The position numbers were made by a program, and so were the translations under genes. A model generated the notes under the pieces. The model ran no database searches. It was not told where the DNA came from and saw nothing but the letters and a program-made list of their open reading frames with translations. DNA of 64,000 nucleotides, from the NCBI RefSeq assembly GCF_026000775.1, contig NZ_AP026830.1, forward strand, positions 1,387,056 through 1,451,055. Direction: 5' to 3'. Source of the DNA: Vulcanisaeta souniana JCM 11219 (GTDB lineage Archaea; Thermoproteota; Thermoprotei; Thermoproteales; Thermocladiaceae). Below are positions 2,674 to 11,418 of this stretch, in pieces; the stretch's first letter is position 1, and every line of letters begins with the position of its first letter.

Positions 2674-2910
2674 CGGCACGCCCGACGTGGCTAATGCGTT
2701 TCTGGGCTTTATGAGTCTGTCTACCCATACTGGGCGCCACCACGGATGCGGCGGTGGGCTTGGTGGGTAACGTTAGTCCCAGTGTTCTTAATTACTGGGT
2801 CAATGGCTTAAAAGCCGTGTTATTGGTGGTGCGTTGTTATAAGGGGTATATGCATTAAGGGGATGGCTTGGGTTGGTGGCGTTTCCTGAAGTTCCATGTC
2901 TCTGAGTTAA

Positions 2911-3574
2911 GTGTGCCCTAGGAACAGGTCTATAAGTGTTGTTAAAGGAGTTGATGTGTATTATGAGTCATCTGCGGTGCTCATAATCTTTAGGGTTAAG
3001 CCTGAGGACACTTTTGAGGAATTAATCCCAATTCCCCTCCCTGAATTCCAAGGACTTTCCACAATACGCAGTGGAAATAGCCCTAGAGGCAGGATATGCT
3101 GGAGAGCTAGAGCTACTTAGGGAGCAATTTACCATTCTTATTTCTCTGTATCATTTCTTGAATAATAAGAGATTAAGCAAAATAGAGGAGGAATACGAGG
3201 CACTGGTGGAAACGGAGAATAGAATATATAGAAAATTAATGGAGCTAAATGTACTGGATGTTGCAGTATACGAGTCCACTAGAAGGGTAATTGAGTATGG
3301 CCAGAGGAGGATGAGAATAACGGATCTTTACGCAAAGGTCAGGGATGCATTGGTGAGCATAAACAGGGAGCTGGATGTTAAGTATCAGTTGGCGGAGAAT
3401 AAGAAGCTAGAAAGATTGGAGTACATACTATTGGTATTAACTGCGGTCCAAGCTGTTGAGGCAAGCTTAAACATTCCGAAGGTGGTTAGCCTTCAACTTG
3501 AATTAATCATGGTAATCTTCCTTACGGCGGTTTCGGTGTTTATCTACATCATTATAACTAGGATGAGACCATGA
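2911..3574 (+). pseudogene. Frameshifted membrane-anchored coiled-coil protein
   Basis: Two reading frames join into one protein. The first (GTG at 2911) encodes a beta-rich N-terminus ending ELIPIPLPEF. The second picks up with KDFPQYAVEIALEAGYAGE, so one extra base lies near 3045-3056 at GAATTCC. The rest is a charged helical region (about 100 residues) followed by two hydrophobic segments, LEYILLVLTAVQA and ELIMVIFLTAVSVFIYIII, at the C-terminus. The layout (globular N-part, coiled coil, two C-terminal helices) recalls RMD1/DUF155 proteins, but I cannot assign the family. Its end overlaps the next broken gene by four bases, so the pair was probably an operon. Confidence 0.6.
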
Positions 3575-4411
3575 AAAGTAACCTAATGGGCTACATGGCA
3601 TCTCTACTCTCTTCCCTTACCTACTCAGTCTGGTTTCTAGTATCCCAGGAAATAGTACCCAGTGGTAGTCCTCAAGGATCATTGTTTGTGGTTATGATGA
3701 TCGCCTTGGGATTCTCTGCCTTACTCAACATAAGGGGGATGAAGAGAATTAGGTTCAAGCCATTTCTAGTCAGCATGGGTGGTGGAATCCTATTCGTATT
3801 AGGAAACATCATCTTCTACTACCTAATTCCGAAGGATGGAATAGGGGGCTGCAAGTGCCTTCTCATCGATAAATCTACTATTCTTTTCAATATTAACCCT
3901 TCCCAAGTCCAAACCTAAAAGCCTAACTCTTTACTTCATAGGAATACTACTCTGTGTATTAGGCATGGCTGGGTTCTATTACACGCCCCAAGGAGGGCTA
4001 TCATAATGCCAAGAAATATTTCGTAAAACGATAGCCCTCCTCTACGCACTAGGAACCTTTATTCTTTACTCAGTCATATCCTCCTCATGGATATCTACCT
4101 CAACCCTGGGAATTTTCTCCGGTGAGGTCTTATTCTTTTTCCCATTTTACATCAGGGATCCAAACCTCCTGACTCTAGGTTGGGACGTTATAGCAGGAGT
4201 AAGTCTCGCCACCGCACTGAACTTGGAAGCAAGAGGATTTAAGATCCTAACCCCAAAGAGAAAGGAGAACATTGTTAACGTGATCTCTAACTTAGAACTA
4301 CTACCTATTGCCATATATTACTTGGTGGTTTACGGGTACCCATATATCTCATACGCTCTCATGTTAGGGATAATTGCTGTAGGTTTAATAATACTAAGTA
4401 TGGCAACATGA
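3571..4411 (+). pseudogene. Decayed multi-pass transporter (DMT/EamA-like)
   Basis: Three readable pieces form one polytopic membrane protein. Piece 1 (3571 to about 3846) holds three hydrophobic helices. An extra G in a run of five G at about 3846 shifts the frame. Piece 2 continues AASAFSSINLLFFS and runs to an in-frame TAA at about 4003. Piece 3 continues in that same frame (TIALLYALGTFILYS) to 4411. With 9-10 hydrophobic helices in all it resembles drug/metabolite transporters of the EamA group; this family call is by topology only. An inverted repeat lies over the internal stop. Confidence 0.6.
3991..4041. repeat. Perfect 12-base inverted repeat, 27-base loop
   Basis: Left arm AGGAGGGCTATC (3991-4002) and right arm GATAGCCCTCCT (4030-4041) are exact reverse complements around an A/T-rich loop. 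The repeat sits inside the decayed transporter gene and spans its internal stop codon. It could be a small insertion with terminal inverted repeats, or a duplication-inversion scar. Confidence 0.6.
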
Positions 4412-4900
4412 GGCAATGAGCTCCGGGAGAGACTAGCCCGCTTTTTCTTAGTGGTATGAGATTTATGGTACCGCTGAGAATTTTTAAACGTGAAGGAAAT
4501 TAAATATAGCTAGGCTTAGAGATTGTGGGTACTGCCGTAGTTGCTTCGAGAAGGGGTGGGGCTACGTAGTGGGCGTGGTTTGCACTTAAATTGCGGTTGT
4601 GATCCTACACGGGGAGTACTCCGGGTTGTTGCAACTAACCCATGCAGGATCATCAGGAATGCAAAGGCGGCTATTACCTGGAGGTCAAGGTTGCTAGGCA
4701 AGTAAAGGCTTGGGCAATGACATAGCCAAACAAAGATGCAAGGTCACGTATGTATTAATGAGCGGTAAACCCAGGGCAGTCACGAGGGGGTGGCCACAGG
4801 CACAAACCAAGGCATGGCCGATAATACCCTCGCAAAACCCCAGAGGGCAAACCGAAAGTGATTTAAGTACTACATTAAGGTCGTCATAACCGGAACCAAA
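4412..4900. other. Gene-free stretch of 489 bases
   Basis: No convincing coding region. Only a 61-codon minus-strand frame and a plus-strand frame of about 53 codons are open, and neither resembles a known family. A TATA-like TTTTTAAAC occurs near 4480. The GC-rich part at 4520-4720 could be a remnant of a lost gene or an RNA; I could not recognise either. Confidence 0.4.
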
Positions 4901-5689
4901 ATGCTAATACTGGTGGCCAGTGGCAGTAAGGGAGGTACAGGGAAGAGTACGGTTGCCCTTGGTTTGTCAGCCATACTTTCGCTTAGGGGCTTTAGTCATG
5001 AGTTGTTTGATTACTCGTGCAACCTGGGCGTGTGTACTGGCGTTTATTACTACCTAAGTGACTTCGTTGATGGCGTTAATAGGTTGTCGAGGTTGGTGAA
5101 GATCAAGCAGGGCCTGCCTCCACAGGACTACGGGGGCCTGGCTATTGTTGACCTGCCGCCAATGAGCCTCGCCCAGCCCGAGTTCGTTGATTTGCTCAGT
5201 AGGGCTGATGCCCTTGTTGTGGTTAGTTCCTATGAGCCGGACTCCGTGGTTTCCATGGAGAGAGTTCTCGAGGCTTACCCTGGCAGTAGGATTGTTAAGG
5301 TTTGTAATAGGGCCTCCATGGAGGGCTGTAGGCACTACCTCAAGGTTACCCCTGAGTCCCCCTTCTTTGTTGTCGGTGAGCCCACTAACTTCAGAACCTT
5401 CCTTAGGCTCACGGATGACCTGGGCTTCACAGGTGAGGCCAGGTTTGAGAGGGTTAGTAGGGAGTTTGGGGCTGATGGTGTTAAGGCGAAGCTTGTCTAT
5501 AGGTGGGACCCGTACGCCATAATTGGCGTTGAGATCTCCCTGAAGTGGTACTACGCCTTAATGCCTTACACGAAACCCATTGAGGAACTGGTGACGACTG
5601 CCAAAAACCTACTCGGCCCAAGCTACCTGAATAGACTTGGCTTCGCTGATAACGCACTAAACAAACTGTTCAGGGCCATTAGGCACTAG
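4901..5689 (+). CDS. ParA/MinD-like ATPase A of pilus locus
   Basis: P-loop ATPase of the SIMIBI class. The N-terminus carries a full deviant Walker A motif, GSKGGTGKST, with the signature lysine, and a Walker B strand IVDLPP near residue 88. The region after Walker A reads LFDYSCNLGVC where ParA proteins usually have a D-x-D-P motif, so it differs from plasmid-partition ParA. At 262 residues it has the usual length. It is followed after 78 bases by a small membrane protein in the same direction. In bacterial Tad pili a MinD-like protein (CpaE/TadZ) places the pilus at the pole; a similar role here is inferred from context. Confidence 0.75.
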   Translation: MLILVASGSKGGTGKSTVALGLSAILSLRGFSHELFDYSCNLGVCTGVYYYLSDFVDGVNRLSRLVKIKQGLPPQDYGGLAIVDLPPMSLAQPEFVDLLSRADALVVVSSYEPDSVVSMERVLEAYPGSRIVKVCNRASMEGCRHYLKVTPESPFFVVGEPTNFRTFLRLTDDLGFTGEARFERVSREFGADGVKAKLVYRWDPYAIIGVEISLKWYYALMPYTKPIEELVTTAKNLLGPSYLNRLGFADNALNKLFRAIRH

Positions 5690-5767
5690 GGAATCACACT
5701 GATTCTGGTGCATTGTGGTTCCTACGTTGTTTAACCTTAATTAAGGACTTAGTGGTCATTAAATGCC

Positions 5768-6133
5768 ATGACAATACTGCTCAGTGTAAATGCAACAAAT
5801 CCCTTCACCACTGCCGAGGGTGCCATTCAGGGTATTGTGAATAATGCAATTAATTTCATGGCATTCGTGGCCGCCGTACTCATACTAATAACCATAGCTG
5901 GCTTGGTCCTAGTTGGTTTTCTCGCCCTTGTTCAATCCTTGATTGGGTACTCACTCATTGAATGGTCCAGCATTAGGCGAATAATAGGCTCAATGGTTAC
6001 GATGGGCGTGGTTCTCGTCTTATTAATGGGCATACTGCCTGCCGTACTTAACTCAGTGGGTTTGACGACAATAGCCACCGCACTTAATAACTTCATGAAC
6101 ATGGTCATGAACCACCTATCATCCTTGATTTAA
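5768..6133 (+). CDS. Small membrane protein with two long hydrophobic segments
   Basis: A 121-residue protein with a short polar N-terminus (about 25 residues), a long hydrophobic stretch at about 28-62, a short polar link with EWSSIRR, a second hydrophobic helix at about 73-95, and an amphipathic tail. No cysteines or catalytic motifs. It lies between two ParA-like genes, converges with the second (5-base gap), and is probably co-transcribed with the first. Size and topology recall VirB2/TrbC or the CedA1/TedC pilins of archaeal DNA-import machines, but I see no sequence motif that proves this. It could equally be an inner-membrane subunit of the pilus. Confidence 0.65.
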   Translation: MTILLSVNATNPFTTAEGAIQGIVNNAINFMAFVAAVLILITIAGLVLVGFLALVQSLIGYSLIEWSSIRRIIGSMVTMGVVLVLLMGILPAVLNSVGLTTIATALNNFMNMVMNHLSSLI

Positions 6134-6137
6134 CCAG

Positions 6138-6770
6138 TTACCCAAGGGCCACCTTTATTAAATTCCTCACATAACTTCTAATCCTCTCAGCGACTTCAAG
6201 TTGATTATTCGTGCCATCCACGTACGGTATTACCGCCGCGGCGTCGTACTTTAGGTCCTCCTTAACCATGTTCATGGCATAGATCATGTGTTTAGTGCCC
6301 ACCCTGGGTATCGTCCTCCTCACTAATTCCTCCCTCCCGCTGATCAGTGGTATTAATAACCTGTCAGCTGCCTCTATTGCACCCAGTGATAACCCTATGT
6401 TTACCACACTCATTGTGTCTATTACGAGGTTTTCCACATTGTATTTATTAATTAGCGTCCTTTCCAGGGACTTTAATGCCCGCTGCATATCCTGCGGTGT
6501 GATCGCGGATAACTGCCTGATCTCTGGGTACTCCCTATGCCTTATTGGCATTACTATATTGCCATCCCTCATGTACATCATGTACCTCCCACCACGCACA
6601 CTATCTATTACATCAGACCTTGGGTTTAGGCCAAGGAGAAGGGATAGAGAACGATTGTCAGGACTCAGGTCCATATAGGCCACATTCCTTGTGCTCATTA
6701 GTAGGGCTAATGTAATGGTTGTTTTCCCTGCTCCCCCAATATTACCACTAGTTACTGTTATTATGGTCAT
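6138..6770 (-). CDS. ParA/MinD-like ATPase B with altered Walker A
   Basis: A 210-residue P-loop protein. The nucleotide loop reads GNIGGAGKTT, so the GGxGKT core is kept while the signature lysine of the KGGxGKT deviant Walker A is replaced by Ile. Other ParA marks remain: a D-x-S-P-D sequence (MDLSPDNRS) near residue 33 and a Walker B-like LVIDTMS near residue 115. Its start overlaps the stop of the upstream coiled-coil gene by four bases (ATGA), which implies translational coupling. It may bind ATP without the usual dimer-dependent hydrolysis; that is inference. Confidence 0.75.
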   Translation of the reverse strand: MTIITVTSGNIGGAGKTTITLALLMSTRNVAYMDLSPDNRSLSLLLGLNPRSDVIDSVRGGRYMMYMRDGNIVMPIRHREYPEIRQLSAITPQDMQRALKSLERTLINKYNVENLVIDTMSVVNIGLSLGAIEAADRLLIPLISGREELVRRTIPRVGTKHMIYAMNMVKEDLKYDAAAVIPYVDGTNNQLEVAERIRSYVRNLIKVALG

Positions 6771-7123
6771 AGCCTTTTCCTTAACTCCTCAAGTTTGTTC
6801 AGTAGGTTATTGATCTCGGTGAGTATTTTTATGACCTCATTTAGGGTGCTTATGTAGTTCTCTATCGTGGGTTTTATCTGAATCAGTTTATCCATTTCAT
6901 TCCTTATGTTAGCCACCTCCTCAATCCTCCTACTCAACTCATCAATGTAATTCCTCAGATCCACTAGGTCTTGGTGGCGGGTCATTGGTGACTGTGCATT
7001 AATTGGTTGTGGTGGTTGCGTATTGAGCCCGAATTCATCCTTGCCCTCTTCCTCTATTACGAGCTCCTCCTCAATCTCCTCATTACTTGGTAGCTTTCTT
7101 TTCCTGTTACCCGGTTTTAACAT
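6767..7123 (-). CDS. Coiled-coil partner protein
   Basis: A 118-residue soluble protein: a basic N-terminus (KPGNRKRKLP), an acidic patch (EEIEEELVIEEE), a Pro/Gln-rich linker, and a C-terminal coiled coil of about 65 residues (from DLRNYIDEL on). It is the first gene of a two-gene unit with ParA-like ATPase B, overlapping it by four bases. It diverges from the secretion ATPase gene at 7199, so the 75 bases between them hold both promoters. It is probably an adaptor for the ParA-like protein; the family is not recognised. Confidence 0.65.
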   Translation of the reverse strand: MLKPGNRKRKLPSNEEIEEELVIEEEGKDEFGLNTQPPQPINAQSPMTRHQDLVDLRNYIDELSRRIEEVANIRNEMDKLIQIKPTIENYISTLNEVIKILTEINNLLNKLEELRKRL

Positions 7124-7198
7124 GATCCTTTAGTCACGCCTCTCATTAATTAGTTTTACCCTCCAACAACTTATTAAGGGGTTTGTTGAGGGTTCAGT

Positions 7199-8710
7199 AT
7201 GGGTTTGTTTTATGGTCGTTCCGTGGGTGCCGTGGATGGTGAAGTTGTTTTTAGCCGTAGGGTTTCTTTTCAGGGCTTCCCAAGCTCGGTTGTAGTCTAC
7301 AGTACTACCTGGGGAACTGGTTGTTTTGTTGATGTGGGTGATGCGGCTCTACCTGGTGTTGATGATTTTAATCTTGAGCGTTTCATCACACGCCACATGC
7401 CTAGGGTCAGGGACTCCGTGATTAGGGGTGTTTCAGCGGGCTTGGGCTTTAAGGACTCCGTGATTAATGCACTAAGGACTGAGGTTAATACGTACCTGAG
7501 GGGTGTTGGCGTTAATGCATCAGGTGATGACCTCAACAGGTGGGCATCTCTCCTTTTTAGGGGCCTTTACGGCTATGGCACCCTGGAGCCCATTATAATG
7601 ACTGGCGATGAGGTTGGCCTTACGGATATTTACGTGACTCCGGGGGCTAGGGTTCATGTTAAGTTAAGTAGTCTTGGTGATTGCCAAACGGGTATTGTGC
7701 CGAGTGCGTCTGAGGTTGATTTGCTCATTAACGTAATTGGCGATAGAACCGGAGCCTACCCGACTTACTACGGTCCATCCATTGAGACCTATGATAGGGC
7801 CCACAGGCCAATGCTTAGGGTAAGCGTGGATTCCTTCGATGTGACGGATAGGACTAGGGTCAGTATTAGGGTTTTCCCCACCAGGGCCTGGAAGCTCATT
7901 GACGTGGTTAGGTTAGGCTCCATTGACGTAAGGCTAGCGGCCTACCTATGGCTGGCGCTCGAGATCGGTTACCCAATACTAATGATCGGTCCTGCTGGGT
8001 CCGGGAAGACCAGTATGTCCGCGGCCCTTATGTCGGCGTTGCCCCCTAGCACGGTGATTGCCAAGGTTGAGGATATCGACGAGGTCCTGCTACCCCAGGA
8101 GTTGGTTAGTGATTACGCCAGTAGTGTCATTCCGCTGCTTAGTCGTGAGGGTCATGGGGCGGGTGTCAGGCCCATACCGCTCTTCCAGAGGCTTGTTCAT
8201 GCGCTTAGGGTTGGTGCTGATTACATATTTGTTAATGAGGTTAGGGGTCCGGAGGACACTAGGGCGTGGCTTCACGCCATAATGAGTGGGCAGGTGGGTG
8301 GTGCAACCACGATGCATGCCGGCGGTGTTGAGGAGGCGCTGGTGAGGCTTAGGGAGTATGGTGTACCCATCGAGGAGATTAAGTTGCTTGTCGTTCTAAT
8401 GGGTAGGTCTGAGGAGGGTAATAGGGTTGTTAGGAGGGTTGTGGGTGTGTGGGTTGTGGATGGTGGTAAGCCATTGGTTGCCTGGGATGGGGCTTTGCGT
8501 GAGGATGTCCTGGTTAAGTTCCTGGGTGGGCGTGTTGGTGAGGACTTCGTGATTAGGGAGGTGGGTGATAGGGAGGCGTTTCTTGGGCATTACTCGGGCT
8601 TTGACGTTGATGAGGCAGAGTGGGTTAGGTTAATAGCCCTGTTTCATAGGGCTAGGAACTTGGTCATGCCCAGGGAGGTCAGGAGTGACGTTGTCTTTGA
8701 GGAGCCCTGA
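7199..8710 (+). CDS. Type IV pilus/type II secretion ATPase (VirB11/TadA/GspE family)
   Basis: Motor ATPase that powers pilus assembly or secretion from the cytoplasmic side. The N-terminal half (about residues 50-230) is the N1/N2 domain with the PRVRDSV and GYGTLEP elements seen in TadA-type proteins. Walker A GPAGSGKT lies at about 264-271, an acidic Asp box KVEDIDE at about 289-295, a Walker B region DYIFVNEVRG at about 348-357 and a His box TTMHAGG near 382. At 503 residues it matches archaeal members. In Walker B, VNEVRG stands where VGEVRG is usual. It pairs logically with the GspF-like gene at 9821 and the prepilin at 10993. Its end overlaps a convergent gene by 32 bases. Confidence 0.9.
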   Translation: MGLFYGRSVGAVDGEVVFSRRVSFQGFPSSVVVYSTTWGTGCFVDVGDAALPGVDDFNLERFITRHMPRVRDSVIRGVSAGLGFKDSVINALRTEVNTYLRGVGVNASGDDLNRWASLLFRGLYGYGTLEPIIMTGDEVGLTDIYVTPGARVHVKLSSLGDCQTGIVPSASEVDLLINVIGDRTGAYPTYYGPSIETYDRAHRPMLRVSVDSFDVTDRTRVSIRVFPTRAWKLIDVVRLGSIDVRLAAYLWLALEIGYPILMIGPAGSGKTSMSAALMSALPPSTVIAKVEDIDEVLLPQELVSDYASSVIPLLSREGHGAGVRPIPLFQRLVHALRVGADYIFVNEVRGPEDTRAWLHAIMSGQVGGATTMHAGGVEEALVRLREYGVPIEEIKLLVVLMGRSEEGNRVVRRVVGVWVVDGGKPLVAWDGALREDVLVKFLGGRVGEDFVIREVGDREAFLGHYSGFDVDEAEWVRLIALFHRARNLVMPREVRSDVVFEEP

Positions 8711-9005
8711 CCCTAGCCAGCAATTGTCTTGCCAACTCATTAATGTCGAGTTGGTTTGGGTAATTACTAATCAGAACTTCCTTGCCAGTCCTCAACGACC
8801 TCCTAACCTCATCATCACCTGCGCCCAAATCCCTCAAAGCCCGTTCTAGGAGCCTCAACCCGTTACTCACGTACACCTCCACTGCATCCCTACTTGGCTT
8901 GCCGCCCTCAGTCCTGAACCTCGGCCTGTTGTTGATCCTCCTCATGAGCCTCGTTATTTCCTCATCCTCGTCTAATGCCGTGGTCTTCCTACGCAGGAAC
9001 CTCAT
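8679..9005 (-). CDS. Small basic protein coupled to ParA-like ATPase C
   Basis: A protein of 108 residues from ATG at 9005 (MRFLRRKTT); this ATG overlaps the TGA of the ParA-like gene upstream as ATGA, which decides the start over the longer option at 9017. It is charged and helical, with a basic N-terminus and RQRH near the C-terminus, and no cysteines. No family recognised. The tight coupling parallels the coiled-coil/ATPase B pair, so each unit may be an ATPase plus a small partner. Its 3' end overlaps the secretion ATPase gene on the opposite strand. Confidence 0.65.
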   Translation of the reverse strand: MRFLRRKTTALDEDEEITRLMRRINNRPRFRTEGGKPSRDAVEVYVSNGLRLLERALRDLGAGDDEVRRSLRTGKEVLISNYPNQLDINELARQLLARVRAPQRQRHS

Positions 9006-9781
9006 GGACTCACCCAAACCCTCTCCGCATTCAGTCTCTCCAGTAATGCCGTTAACTCATCAATCGCCTTCCTAAATTGACCAAGCTCCGGGTCCTTGAC
9101 CAGGTAAGGTATTGAGCCCAGTCGCCATGCCGCCTCAATGGCTGGGTTCCTGAGTATCTTCACCACGTTCTTAACGCCAATGTCCAGGTTACCCCTTATA
9201 CTCGATAACTTATTCAGCACCACAATGCCCTCCTTCCCTGGGCCCATTGTTGACGCGTACTCAAGCATGTTACCGAGCCATCCCATGCCGCCAGGCTCGT
9301 CTGTGGCCACCAGTGTTATCACATCGGCATTGCCTATCAACGCCATCATGAGCCCCGGGTTTAGGGCCAGTGATAGGGCTGGTGTGTCTATCAGTATGAA
9401 GTTGGGCCTAACCCTGTAATTGCCTATTCCCTTAATCAGTGATGATATCCTCGAGCTCAGGACCGTGGTGCTCGGTAATGCAGTGTATGGGTTCGTGATG
9501 GGCGAGGCACCGGGTGGTATGACCTTTATGTTCCCCACAACCCCATCCTCAATGAACGCCGTCGAGGTTCTAACGGCCTTCGTAATCCCCATCATGTACG
9601 TCAAGGCACCATTAACACTACCTGGGTTGTTCACGCCTAGTACCCTAGAGGCCGTGGCGTTTGGGTCCAGGTCAATGAACCAAGTCCTGTAACCACTAAT
9701 TGCCAGTGCTGTGGCTAGGCTCGTGGTTATTAATGTCTTGCCAACACCGCCCTTCTGGCTTAGGAACAATACTGTTAACAT
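9002..9781 (-). CDS. ParA/MinD-like ATPase C, canonical
   Basis: The most typical of the three: deviant Walker A QKGGVGKT at residues 9-16, Walker A' FIDLDPNATAS, and Walker B ILIDTPA near residue 133. 259 residues, the usual length for Soj/ParA/MinD. A single copy beside a replication origin would suggest chromosome partition, but here it sits between a secretion ATPase and its membrane platform, so a role in placing or counting pili, as for CpaE/TadZ, is the better guess. The downstream small gene overlaps its stop; the GspF-like gene lies 39 bases upstream in the same direction, suggesting one transcript 10942 to 8679. Confidence 0.85.
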   Translation of the reverse strand: MLTVLFLSQKGGVGKTLITTSLATALAISGYRTWFIDLDPNATASRVLGVNNPGSVNGALTYMMGITKAVRTSTAFIEDGVVGNIKVIPPGASPITNPYTALPSTTVLSSRISSLIKGIGNYRVRPNFILIDTPALSLALNPGLMMALIGNADVITLVATDEPGGMGWLGNMLEYASTMGPGKEGIVVLNKLSSIRGNLDIGVKNVVKILRNPAIEAAWRLGSIPYLVKDPELGQFRKAIDELTALLERLNAERVWVSP

Positions 9782-9820
9782 AGGTTGTAACTATGCATGG
9801 CATTATTAAGGTTTTACCCG

Positions 9821-10942
9821 CTAAGTCATTGTCAGGGCTATGTACGTGATCACCAGTGGTACCGTGGTGTAGATGCCCGTGACCACAGAGTCAAGCACGT
9901 AACCACTCATGAAGCCCCCAAGTATGACTGTTGGAAGCATTAGCTGTAGCATGGCTGCACCCCCAGCCACTTGGGTTGCTATCAACCTGGTTATCACAAG
10001 CATGACCTCCATGAGGGATATAGACACAATAACAGAGGCGTACCCAATCCTCCTGGATTCCATTATGGTGTTTATTACGTGGGTTAATGACGTAACTGCC
10101 ACGTTAATTACGTCAGGTCTCCCCATACCCGTTATGGCCACCGCCCTCGTATACTCATTAATGAAGCCCTCGAGCCAATTCCTTGACCGTGCATCGCCGA
10201 GCCTAAGCGTGACCGCGGCCCTCATCACCCTATTAATTGCCGTGTGCCTCACCTCATTGATTATCCTAACCTTCCCAACGTACCAGTTGAGGCTTAGGCC
10301 TAGGAAGGCCGTGGAGAACGCAAGCCATGCCAACTCAATAGACCTGGTAACTACGTAGGCAGGTACCGCTGGTATTAACGCGGCTCCCATGTACATGATT
10401 AATTCATTGTCAATAACCACTAGCCCCGGGTCCAAGCTCCAGCCCAGCAATGCGGTTATTGGGGCCGCTGAGACGTATGTCGTTACTAAGTACATTGTTG
10501 GGTCTATGCCTATGGCCCTACTCACTAGGACTATTGTCATTGGCATTATGGCTAATGTAATTACCGTGAGCATGTCGAGCAGCATTACCAAGTCTCTATG
10601 GTCATTCCTAAGCCTTCCCAAGTAGTCGTCGAGCTCTCTTAGTATGTGGAGCACGGCGGTACTCGGTTCAATACCTAGCCTCTCAGTATTAACCATGGTT
10701 TCAAGCACACTGCCTAGACTACCCACGTACTTCGTGATAGGCTCATTCATTGAAATCACAGCCCCAGCCATTAATAATCGTTTAATTAAGGGACGGTTAA
10801 AACCGAGTCTTTGGGCCTCACTGACTAGGGTATCAATGACCCTACCCACTGGCTGGGCTAGGAATAGGGGTGTTGCGAGTGTTATGAGCAATGCCTCCTC
10901 AAGCCTAGCCCTGAACCAAGGCTTGACTGTGGCTAAGCCCAT
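9821..10942 (-). CDS. Pilus membrane platform protein (GspF/TadB/TadC/FlaJ-like)
   Basis: Multi-pass membrane protein of 373 residues. An N-terminal helical domain with the RLLMAGAVISMNEPI region is followed by four or more hydrophobic segments: VMLLDMLTVITLAIMPMTI, a pair near residues 150-215, and VSISLMEVMLVITRLIA to the end. This arrangement of cytoplasmic helical bundles between membrane helices is that of the TadB/TadC and archaeal FlaJ platform, which is rotated or moved by the secretion ATPase. I call it by topology and by its neighbours, the ATPase and prepilin. It diverges from the prepilin gene. Confidence 0.75.
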   Translation of the reverse strand: MGLATVKPWFRARLEEALLITLATPLFLAQPVGRVIDTLVSEAQRLGFNRPLIKRLLMAGAVISMNEPITKYVGSLGSVLETMVNTERLGIEPSTAVLHILRELDDYLGRLRNDHRDLVMLLDMLTVITLAIMPMTIVLVSRAIGIDPTMYLVTTYVSAAPITALLGWSLDPGLVVIDNELIMYMGAALIPAVPAYVVTRSIELAWLAFSTAFLGLSLNWYVGKVRIINEVRHTAINRVMRAAVTLRLGDARSRNWLEGFINEYTRAVAITGMGRPDVINVAVTSLTHVINTIMESRRIGYASVIVSISLMEVMLVITRLIATQVAGGAAMLQLMLPTVILGGFMSGYVLDSVVTGIYTTVPLVITYIALTMT

Positions 10943-10961
10943 AGGTCTATGTATAGATAAT

Positions 10962-10970
10962 GCTTAATAA
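10962..10970 (+). promoter_or_regulatory. TATA box of the prepilin gene
   Basis: The A/T-rich GCTTAATAA is centred about 26 bases before ATG 10993, the spacing of leaderless crenarchaeal genes. It supports the 10993 start and argues against the ATG at 10960, which would overlap the box. Confidence 0.5.
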
Positions 10971-10992
10971 GGAGTACCTCTATAGACTTACT

Positions 10993-11418
10993 ATGCCTAG
11001 TCGTGGTGAGTTGTCACCGTTGGTTTCAGTTATCATTGCGGCGGTCCTCATCGTCGTTGGCGTAACTTTGATAATGCTTTTTTACCATGGTGCAAAATCA
11101 ATGAGCCAGCGCGCCCTTAACGCACCTGAGGCTGAGGCTTCGGGTAGTATTTCGGCGTCTACGGGTGTTGTCACGATTAATATCTATAATGCAGGTGCCA
11201 CGCAGCTCGCCATAAGTGGCGTTAAGATTTATGGATCTGATGGCACAGTACTTAACTGTTCATGGAACGGCATTGGCACCATTGTGGCGGCGGGTGGTAG
11301 TTACGGAATTGTTGGCCAGTGCAGTGGTGTTGGGGCTGGCGACACATACACAATAGTTGTTACGTTGAATGGCACCAGTGGTTCCTTAGCCGAGTCCCTC
11401 ACCGTTACTGCCTCATAG
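10993..11418 (+). CDS. Class III prepilin (type IV pilin-like)
   Basis: From ATG 10993 the protein starts MPSRGELSPLVSVII: a five-residue positive leader ending in Gly, then the LSPLVS start of a hydrophobic helix of about 24 residues (to LIMLFYHG). This is the archaeal prepilin/archaellin pattern cut by PibD-type peptidase, probably after RG. The rest is a Ser/Thr/Gly-rich beta domain of about 100 residues with two cysteines (NCSW and GQCSG) that could pair, and N-glycosylation sequons NCS and NGT. It is the only evident pilin with a signal of this kind in the window and likely forms the filament body. Confidence 0.85.
   Translation: MPSRGELSPLVSVIIAAVLIVVGVTLIMLFYHGAKSMSQRALNAPEAEASGSISASTGVVTINIYNAGATQLAISGVKIYGSDGTVLNCSWNGIGTIVAAGGSYGIVGQCSGVGAGDTYTIVVTLNGTSGSLAESLTVTAS

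Follow-up and report, generated by a model that had tools for sequence, protein, structure and literature searches.

A probable Vulcanisaeta-specific type IV pilus locus with a layered set of ParA/MinD-type ATPases

Relation to described systems

Type IV pili of subclade 4G in the Thermoproteales are paired with a distinct FleN/MinD-type ATPase, arCOG05608, according to the sections of Makarova et al. (2016, PMC4858521) on which we draw. In the single-contig genome of the hot-spring archaeon Vulcanisaeta souniana JCM 11219 (2,432,148 bases) we analysed a stretch of 64,000 nucleotides (the window) and within it a block of nine open reading frames (ORFs) at positions 4901–11418, lettered A to I, which comprises a motor ATPase (E), a membrane platform (H), a pilin (I), three ParA-like ATPases (ParA1, ParA2 and ParA3; genes A, C and G) and three small proteins (B, D and F). 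We consider it probable (about 0.6) that this block encodes an archaeal type IV pilus that is specific to Vulcanisaeta, has evolved fast and is controlled by a layered set of ParA/MinD proteins.

As far as those sections of the survey describe subclade 4G, the locus shares with it the order, a divergent VirB11-type motor and TadC-type platform, a PilA-type pilin and one dedicated FleN/MinD-type ATPase, a place that by gene context is taken by ParA3 in the H-G-F unit. In contrast to 4G as described there, the block has two extra ParA-family genes with partners of their own, contains neither minor pilins nor secreted proteins rich in cysteine, and has a motor on a separate long branch. The survey, of which these sections are a part, may already list the present locus. 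A single pilus-linked ParA is already known; the pair of ParA2 with a coiled-coil protein and the linked pair of ParA1 with a membrane protein are new.

Three further systems are comparable. The locus shares with bacterial Tad systems and their CpaE/TadZ a VirB11/TadA motor, a TadC platform and a ParA/MinD protein with an atypical ATPase site near the motor, and CpaE/TadZ is an earlier example of a pilus machine that includes an atypical ATPase (PMC13170226). Unlike there, the block holds three ParA proteins instead of one and no secretin gene, and none of the three carries a receiver domain ahead of the ATPase domain, the P-loop lying inside the first 20 residues in each. In Haloferax, MinD2 and MinD4 jointly position one archaeal machine, the archaellum (PMC11588486), and so offer a case in which a single surface machine is under the control of more than one MinD-type ATPase; the locus numbers in that paper place the minD genes apart from one another on the genome, whereas here the genes lie in one machine locus. 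Ted/Ced systems likewise have a ParA/MinD ATPase adjoining a small two-helix membrane protein, but no TedA, TedB or TedC homolog was found in the locus, and the Ted locus of this genome lies elsewhere.

Conservation and organization of the nine-gene block

All nine ORFs, among them three ParA-like genes with small partners of which two are joined by 4-base overlaps, were present in our ORF reading of the window, as a preliminary description had reported (Table 1). Order and orientation are identical in two complete relatives (G008 and G004), flanked by helicase and pterin dehydratase genes, and two drafts (G003 and G009) also hold the nine genes in order, the G009 copy being split across two contigs. 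Together with the source genome, the gene order that had been proposed as a check in relatives is conserved across five Vulcanisaeta species. The ATGA overlaps of D/C and G/F (4 bases each) and a 32-bp convergent E/F overlap recur in orthologs. The ratio of nonsynonymous to synonymous divergence (dN/dS) is 0.06–0.21 for all nine genes, which are under purifying selection; because order and orientation are kept at dS of about 0.4–2.4, the block is not a chance arrangement. Broken ORFs in three drafts (G003, G005 and G009) were not called pseudogenes, because the helicase gene is also broken in G005 and G009 and all three drafts are frameshifted in several genes.

Profiles of H, G, A and B, run against 81 genomes of the class, gave no ortholog-level match outside Vulcanisaeta and nothing beyond marginal matches there; for C, D, F and I the comparison covers the loci read. 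The nearest motor ATPases, in Caldivirga and Thermocladium-like loci (32–41% identity), are not accompanied by the rest of the block.

Strands and gaps delimit five transcription units (A-B, D-C, E, H-G-F and I), of which A-B stands apart and runs convergently to C. D-C and E start from a shared stretch of 75 bp, in which two TATA-like boxes stand back to back in a block that is almost invariant in the five species, against a synonymous difference of about 50% in the genes. Motor and ParA2 are thus predicted to be expressed together from this conserved back-to-back promoter region.

The pilus core

The earlier assignment of a VirB11/TadA-type ATPase, a GspF/TadC-like platform and a class III prepilin held for all three genes. 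Motor E matches Pfam T2SSE with 63.6 bits (1.7e-17, cut-off 24.9) and its orthologs in Vulcanisaeta are 81–85% identical. Platform H has no Pfam or NCBIfam match, and its AlphaFold2 model was uninformative (predicted local distance difference test score, pLDDT, 40). Against a profile of the Thermoproteales pilus platform family built from 21 sequences, H aligned colinearly over most of its length with an hhalign probability of 93.8% and a score of 58.3, a score that none of 100 block shuffles reached (at most 30.3). Of five membrane proteins aligned as controls, four scored 15–20; the fifth, a ten-transmembrane protein next to a different pilus locus, reached 42.9 and is possibly a platform too. 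Pilin I carries the class III signal RG|ELSPLVSVIIAAVLIV, a motif invariant in all orthologs, and its profile matches two other pilins that this genome encodes (E 8e-7 and 7e-6); its NCBIfam match to UpsA (2.1e-5) is under the cut-off. Its start was placed at 10993 and not at 10960, because a conserved TATA-like box (CTTAAWAG) sits about 27 bp upstream. As judged from sequence, E, H and I are a putative divergent Thermoproteales type IV pilus core of the kind described by Makarova et al. (2016).

Of the other VirB11-type loci read in the genome, two (around 2.108 and 1.215 Mb) bring a platform, a motor and a pilin together with a single ParA, and the others have none. The ParA-type protein of another pilus locus (L220:5109-6026), which adjoins a pilin gene, reads KGGVGTST, with the P-loop lysine itself replaced.

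Three different ParA proteins and their partners

The signature lysine and the catalytic aspartate have established roles in MinD/ParA proteins. ParA3 is well over the Pfam cut-off for CbiA/ParA and has all canonical residues, with a deviant Walker A motif QKGGVGKT and the catalytic aspartate (DLDP). ParA1 and ParA2 score just under the cut-off of 25.4 bits (Table 1), with legible P-loop, switch I and switch II motifs. ParA1 retains the signature lysine (SKGGTGKST) and has lost the aspartate (FDYSC, with DYS for DxD), and ParA2 lacks both, reading GNIGGAGKTT (orthologs GN[IV]GG[AV]GKTT) and DLSP. The orthologs show the same motif states, except for an additional G in one draft copy of ParA2. 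We term ParA1 and ParA2 putatively catalytically atypical rather than dead, because McdA and BcsQ are listed with altered Walker A motifs (PMC9178275). Both end in a basic amphipathic tail of the same kind (ADNALNKLFRAIRH in ParA1) that resembles the MinD membrane anchor; three of 144 background tails match each of the two. The four cysteines C40, C45, C135 and C143 of ParA1 are invariant in three aligned orthologs and are a possible metal or disulfide site.

The preliminary description had set three ParA-like ATPases against the single CpaE/TadZ of Tad loci. Three are indeed present, but they are mutually distant and, with two of them atypical, not a simple triplication: tandem duplication was ruled out by mutual profile E-values of 0.0015 or worse, and each is closest to a different ParA elsewhere.

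Partner D has a basic N-terminus in all five species (charge +4/+5, reached by five of 187 background ORFs), and ParA/MinD partners generally bind via a positive N-terminus (PMC12204374). The start of the basic protein F is the ATG at 9005. The AlphaFold2 model of B has three helices (pLDDT 67), with no match in a fold search. A truncated second copy of B (residues 42–102, 64% identical) lies at about 848,690–848,890 of the genome (L079:9191-9394), in which no second ParA1 was detected. Similar small, lone proteins with a signal peptide, two transmembrane segments and pilin-like architecture occur in Vulcanisaeta and Pyrobaculum (L109:13811-14170, L080:5185-5490).

Table 1. Positions in the window, strand and supporting evidence for the genes and intergenic regions of the block
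Feature	Positions	Strand	Evidence
A, ParA1, 262 residues	4901..5689	+	CbiA 23.0 bits; motifs; tail; orthologs in nine Vulcanisaeta species
B, 121-residue two-transmembrane helical hairpin protein, A-B unit	5768..6133	+	Orthologs; AlphaFold2 model
C, ParA2, 210 residues	6138..6770	-	CbiA 22.8 bits; motifs in four orthologs; tail
D, 118-residue coiled-coil protein, basic N-terminus	6767..7123	-	Five-species alignment; ATGA overlap with C
D-C/E back-to-back promoter region	7124..7198		Two conserved TATA-like boxes; five-species alignment
E, VirB11/TadA-type secretion ATPase, 503 residues	7199..8710	+	Pfam T2SSE; orthologs; tree
F, 108-residue basic protein, N-terminus MRFLRRK	8679..9005	-	Orthologs; overlaps with G and E
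G, ParA3, 259 residues	9002..9781	-	CbiA 4.2e-13; alignment
H, divergent TadC/ArlJ-type platform, 373 residues, first in H-G-F unit	9821..10942	-	hhalign
H/I divergent region, conserved CTTAAWAG box	10943..10992		Alignment of four loci
I, class III (type IV) prepilin, 141 residues	10993..11418	+	Signal motif; profile matches

Upstream of the block, the distance from the helicase gene to ParA1 is about 2 kb here versus 166 bp in V. distributa. The intervening region (window 2680–4900), which holds a coiled-coil/transmembrane ORF (3071–3574) and a short membrane ORF (3571–3918), looks like a strain-specific insertion.

Which ParA proteins belong to the pilus

A pilus under elaborate control by three ParA proteins, as first suggested, was borne out in part. 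ParA-type spatial control by ParA3 is supported, because platform, ParA3 and basic protein form one operon and the same partnership occurs in other Thermoproteales pilus loci. The tie of ParA2 to the pilus is moderately supported, because its conserved promoter is shared with the motor and ParA2 is intact only where pilus genes are present. For ParA1-B the suggestion is not supported, the pair being kept in two species without C-I and ParA1 by itself in two others. In our best view, only two of the three ParA proteins, ParA2 and ParA3, are tied to the pilus.

Of the Vulcanisaeta species, nine have A, seven have B and five have motor, platform and ParA3, the last three being jointly absent in the remaining species. 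In G005, the last 19–20 codons of C are left beside B, with the rest replaced; G002 has a decayed end of C beside B. A stands alone at the same helicase in G011 (99% complete) and at another site in G001. Several genomes without C-I are drafts, where absences are weaker than in G011. Because of the remnants of C beside B and the lone A in G011 and G001, C-I appears as one losable unit that A-B outlives, and A-B as a ParA unit in its own right, which is older, shares the site on the chromosome and may serve the pilus without depending on it. Scattering of the genes, or ParA genes tied to partition sites without a link to the pilus, had been named as what would speak against a joint function; C-I stay together, but the survival of ParA1-B without C-I comes close.

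These counts, together with the separate and convergent A-B transcription unit, speak for two adjacent modules, namely a pilus (C-I) with two ParA proteins of its own and an unrelated ParA1-B pair with another job, such as organizing the envelope or the chromosome. However, A-B adjoins C-I wherever C-I occurs, two species without C-I show loss and not independent origin, and the basic tail of ParA1 is of the same kind as that of ParA2. We regard two unrelated modules as a serious though rather unlikely alternative. Doubtful to a somewhat greater degree is a three-part ParA/MinD switch on one pilus, in which an active ParA3 would act with membrane-bound, hydrolysis-poor ParA1 and ParA2, each with an adaptor; if true, the three would jointly set the position, number and orientation of the pilus. 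We found no pilus using three ParA/MinD proteins described in the literature.

Several points weigh against the layered pilus that we favour. In the tree, E is a Vulcanisaeta-only lineage alone on a long branch, so that membership in subclade 4G is not established. Two species (G005 and G002) have kept A-B and lost C-I. The tests of tail and N-terminal charge were picked after the sequences had been seen, and D and F belong to no recognisable family. McdA lacks the signature lysine yet positions carboxysomes (PMC9178275), so motif loss is not proven loss of function.

DNA transfer and mobile elements

The preliminary description had also considered a DNA-uptake or conjugation machine, which our results do not support. 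In such a machine ParA1 would be a VirC1-like ATPase and B a conjugative pilin, with a Ted-type system fused to pilus genes. Ted loci commonly hold a ParA/MinD ATPase (PMC9905601), B is a small two-helix membrane protein, and two genomes of Vulcanisaeta have ParA1 next to a HerA-like cluster that is related to the P. calidifontis Ted locus. However, no ORF or family match for the TedA pore or the TedB (VirB4) ATPase was found among the nine genes, and B as a VirB2/TedC-type pilin was rejected at an hhalign probability of 1.9% against the TedC profile and no fold match, shallow alignments limiting the sensitivity of this comparison. Starting from the Ted system of P. calidifontis, a TedC relative with a TedB-like gene next to it was located at 1.238 Mb of the source genome, and this separate Ted locus (1.226–1.246 Mb) is about 150 kb from the pilus locus. 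ParA1 was not adopted as a Ted ParA on the grounds of its neighbours in the two genomes; that neighbourhood, the sole link of Ted with the pilus locus, looks like an insertion, because the cluster is multi-copy in two genomes and sits at other sites in other species. We therefore judge a DNA-transfer role very unlikely.

The HerA-like cluster (read in L109, L078, L130, L131, L132 and G003 contigs) is possibly a mobile Ted-like element. At about 1.238–1.241 Mb of the source genome (L128:12068-14941), a TedC-like pilin of 133 residues and a TedB/VirB4-like ATPase have no ParA among the neighbouring ORFs read.

Least likely of the origins considered is a remnant of an integrated plasmid or virus in which the ParA genes serve partition: several clustered ParA genes are plasmid-like and G matches the ParA family, but A and H have no relatives in 2.9 million viral contigs, in which ParA3 matches generic ParA only. 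Pfam and NCBIfam scans of the nine proteins (B, D and F included) gave no match to an integrase, a relaxase or ParB, and the block has about the G+C content of its surroundings and keeps its place in the chromosome between species with dS near 1.

Proposed function and implications

In the layered pilus that we propose, motor E and platform H would assemble pilin I. ParA3 would be the pilus' own ParA/MinD switch, binding and hydrolysing ATP, and it may use the small basic protein F to position the machines or limit their number, in a CpaE/FleN-like manner. ParA2 would be made together with motor E from the shared promoter; its basic C-terminal tail would hold it at the membrane, and the coiled-coil protein D would link it to the machine. 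Because ParA2 lacks the signature lysine and the aspartate, it may act as an ATP-binding scaffold and not as a fast ATPase. The protein contacts and the positioning role are predictions from sequence.

How archaea place and count their surface machines is little known, and the only studied case that we found is MinD2/MinD4 of Haloferax. The locus in Vulcanisaeta is a compact natural set of ParA proteins, both canonical and atypical, that come with small partners of their own next to a single motor. Its natural deletions (A only, A-B only, all nine genes) let the roles of these proteins be separated.

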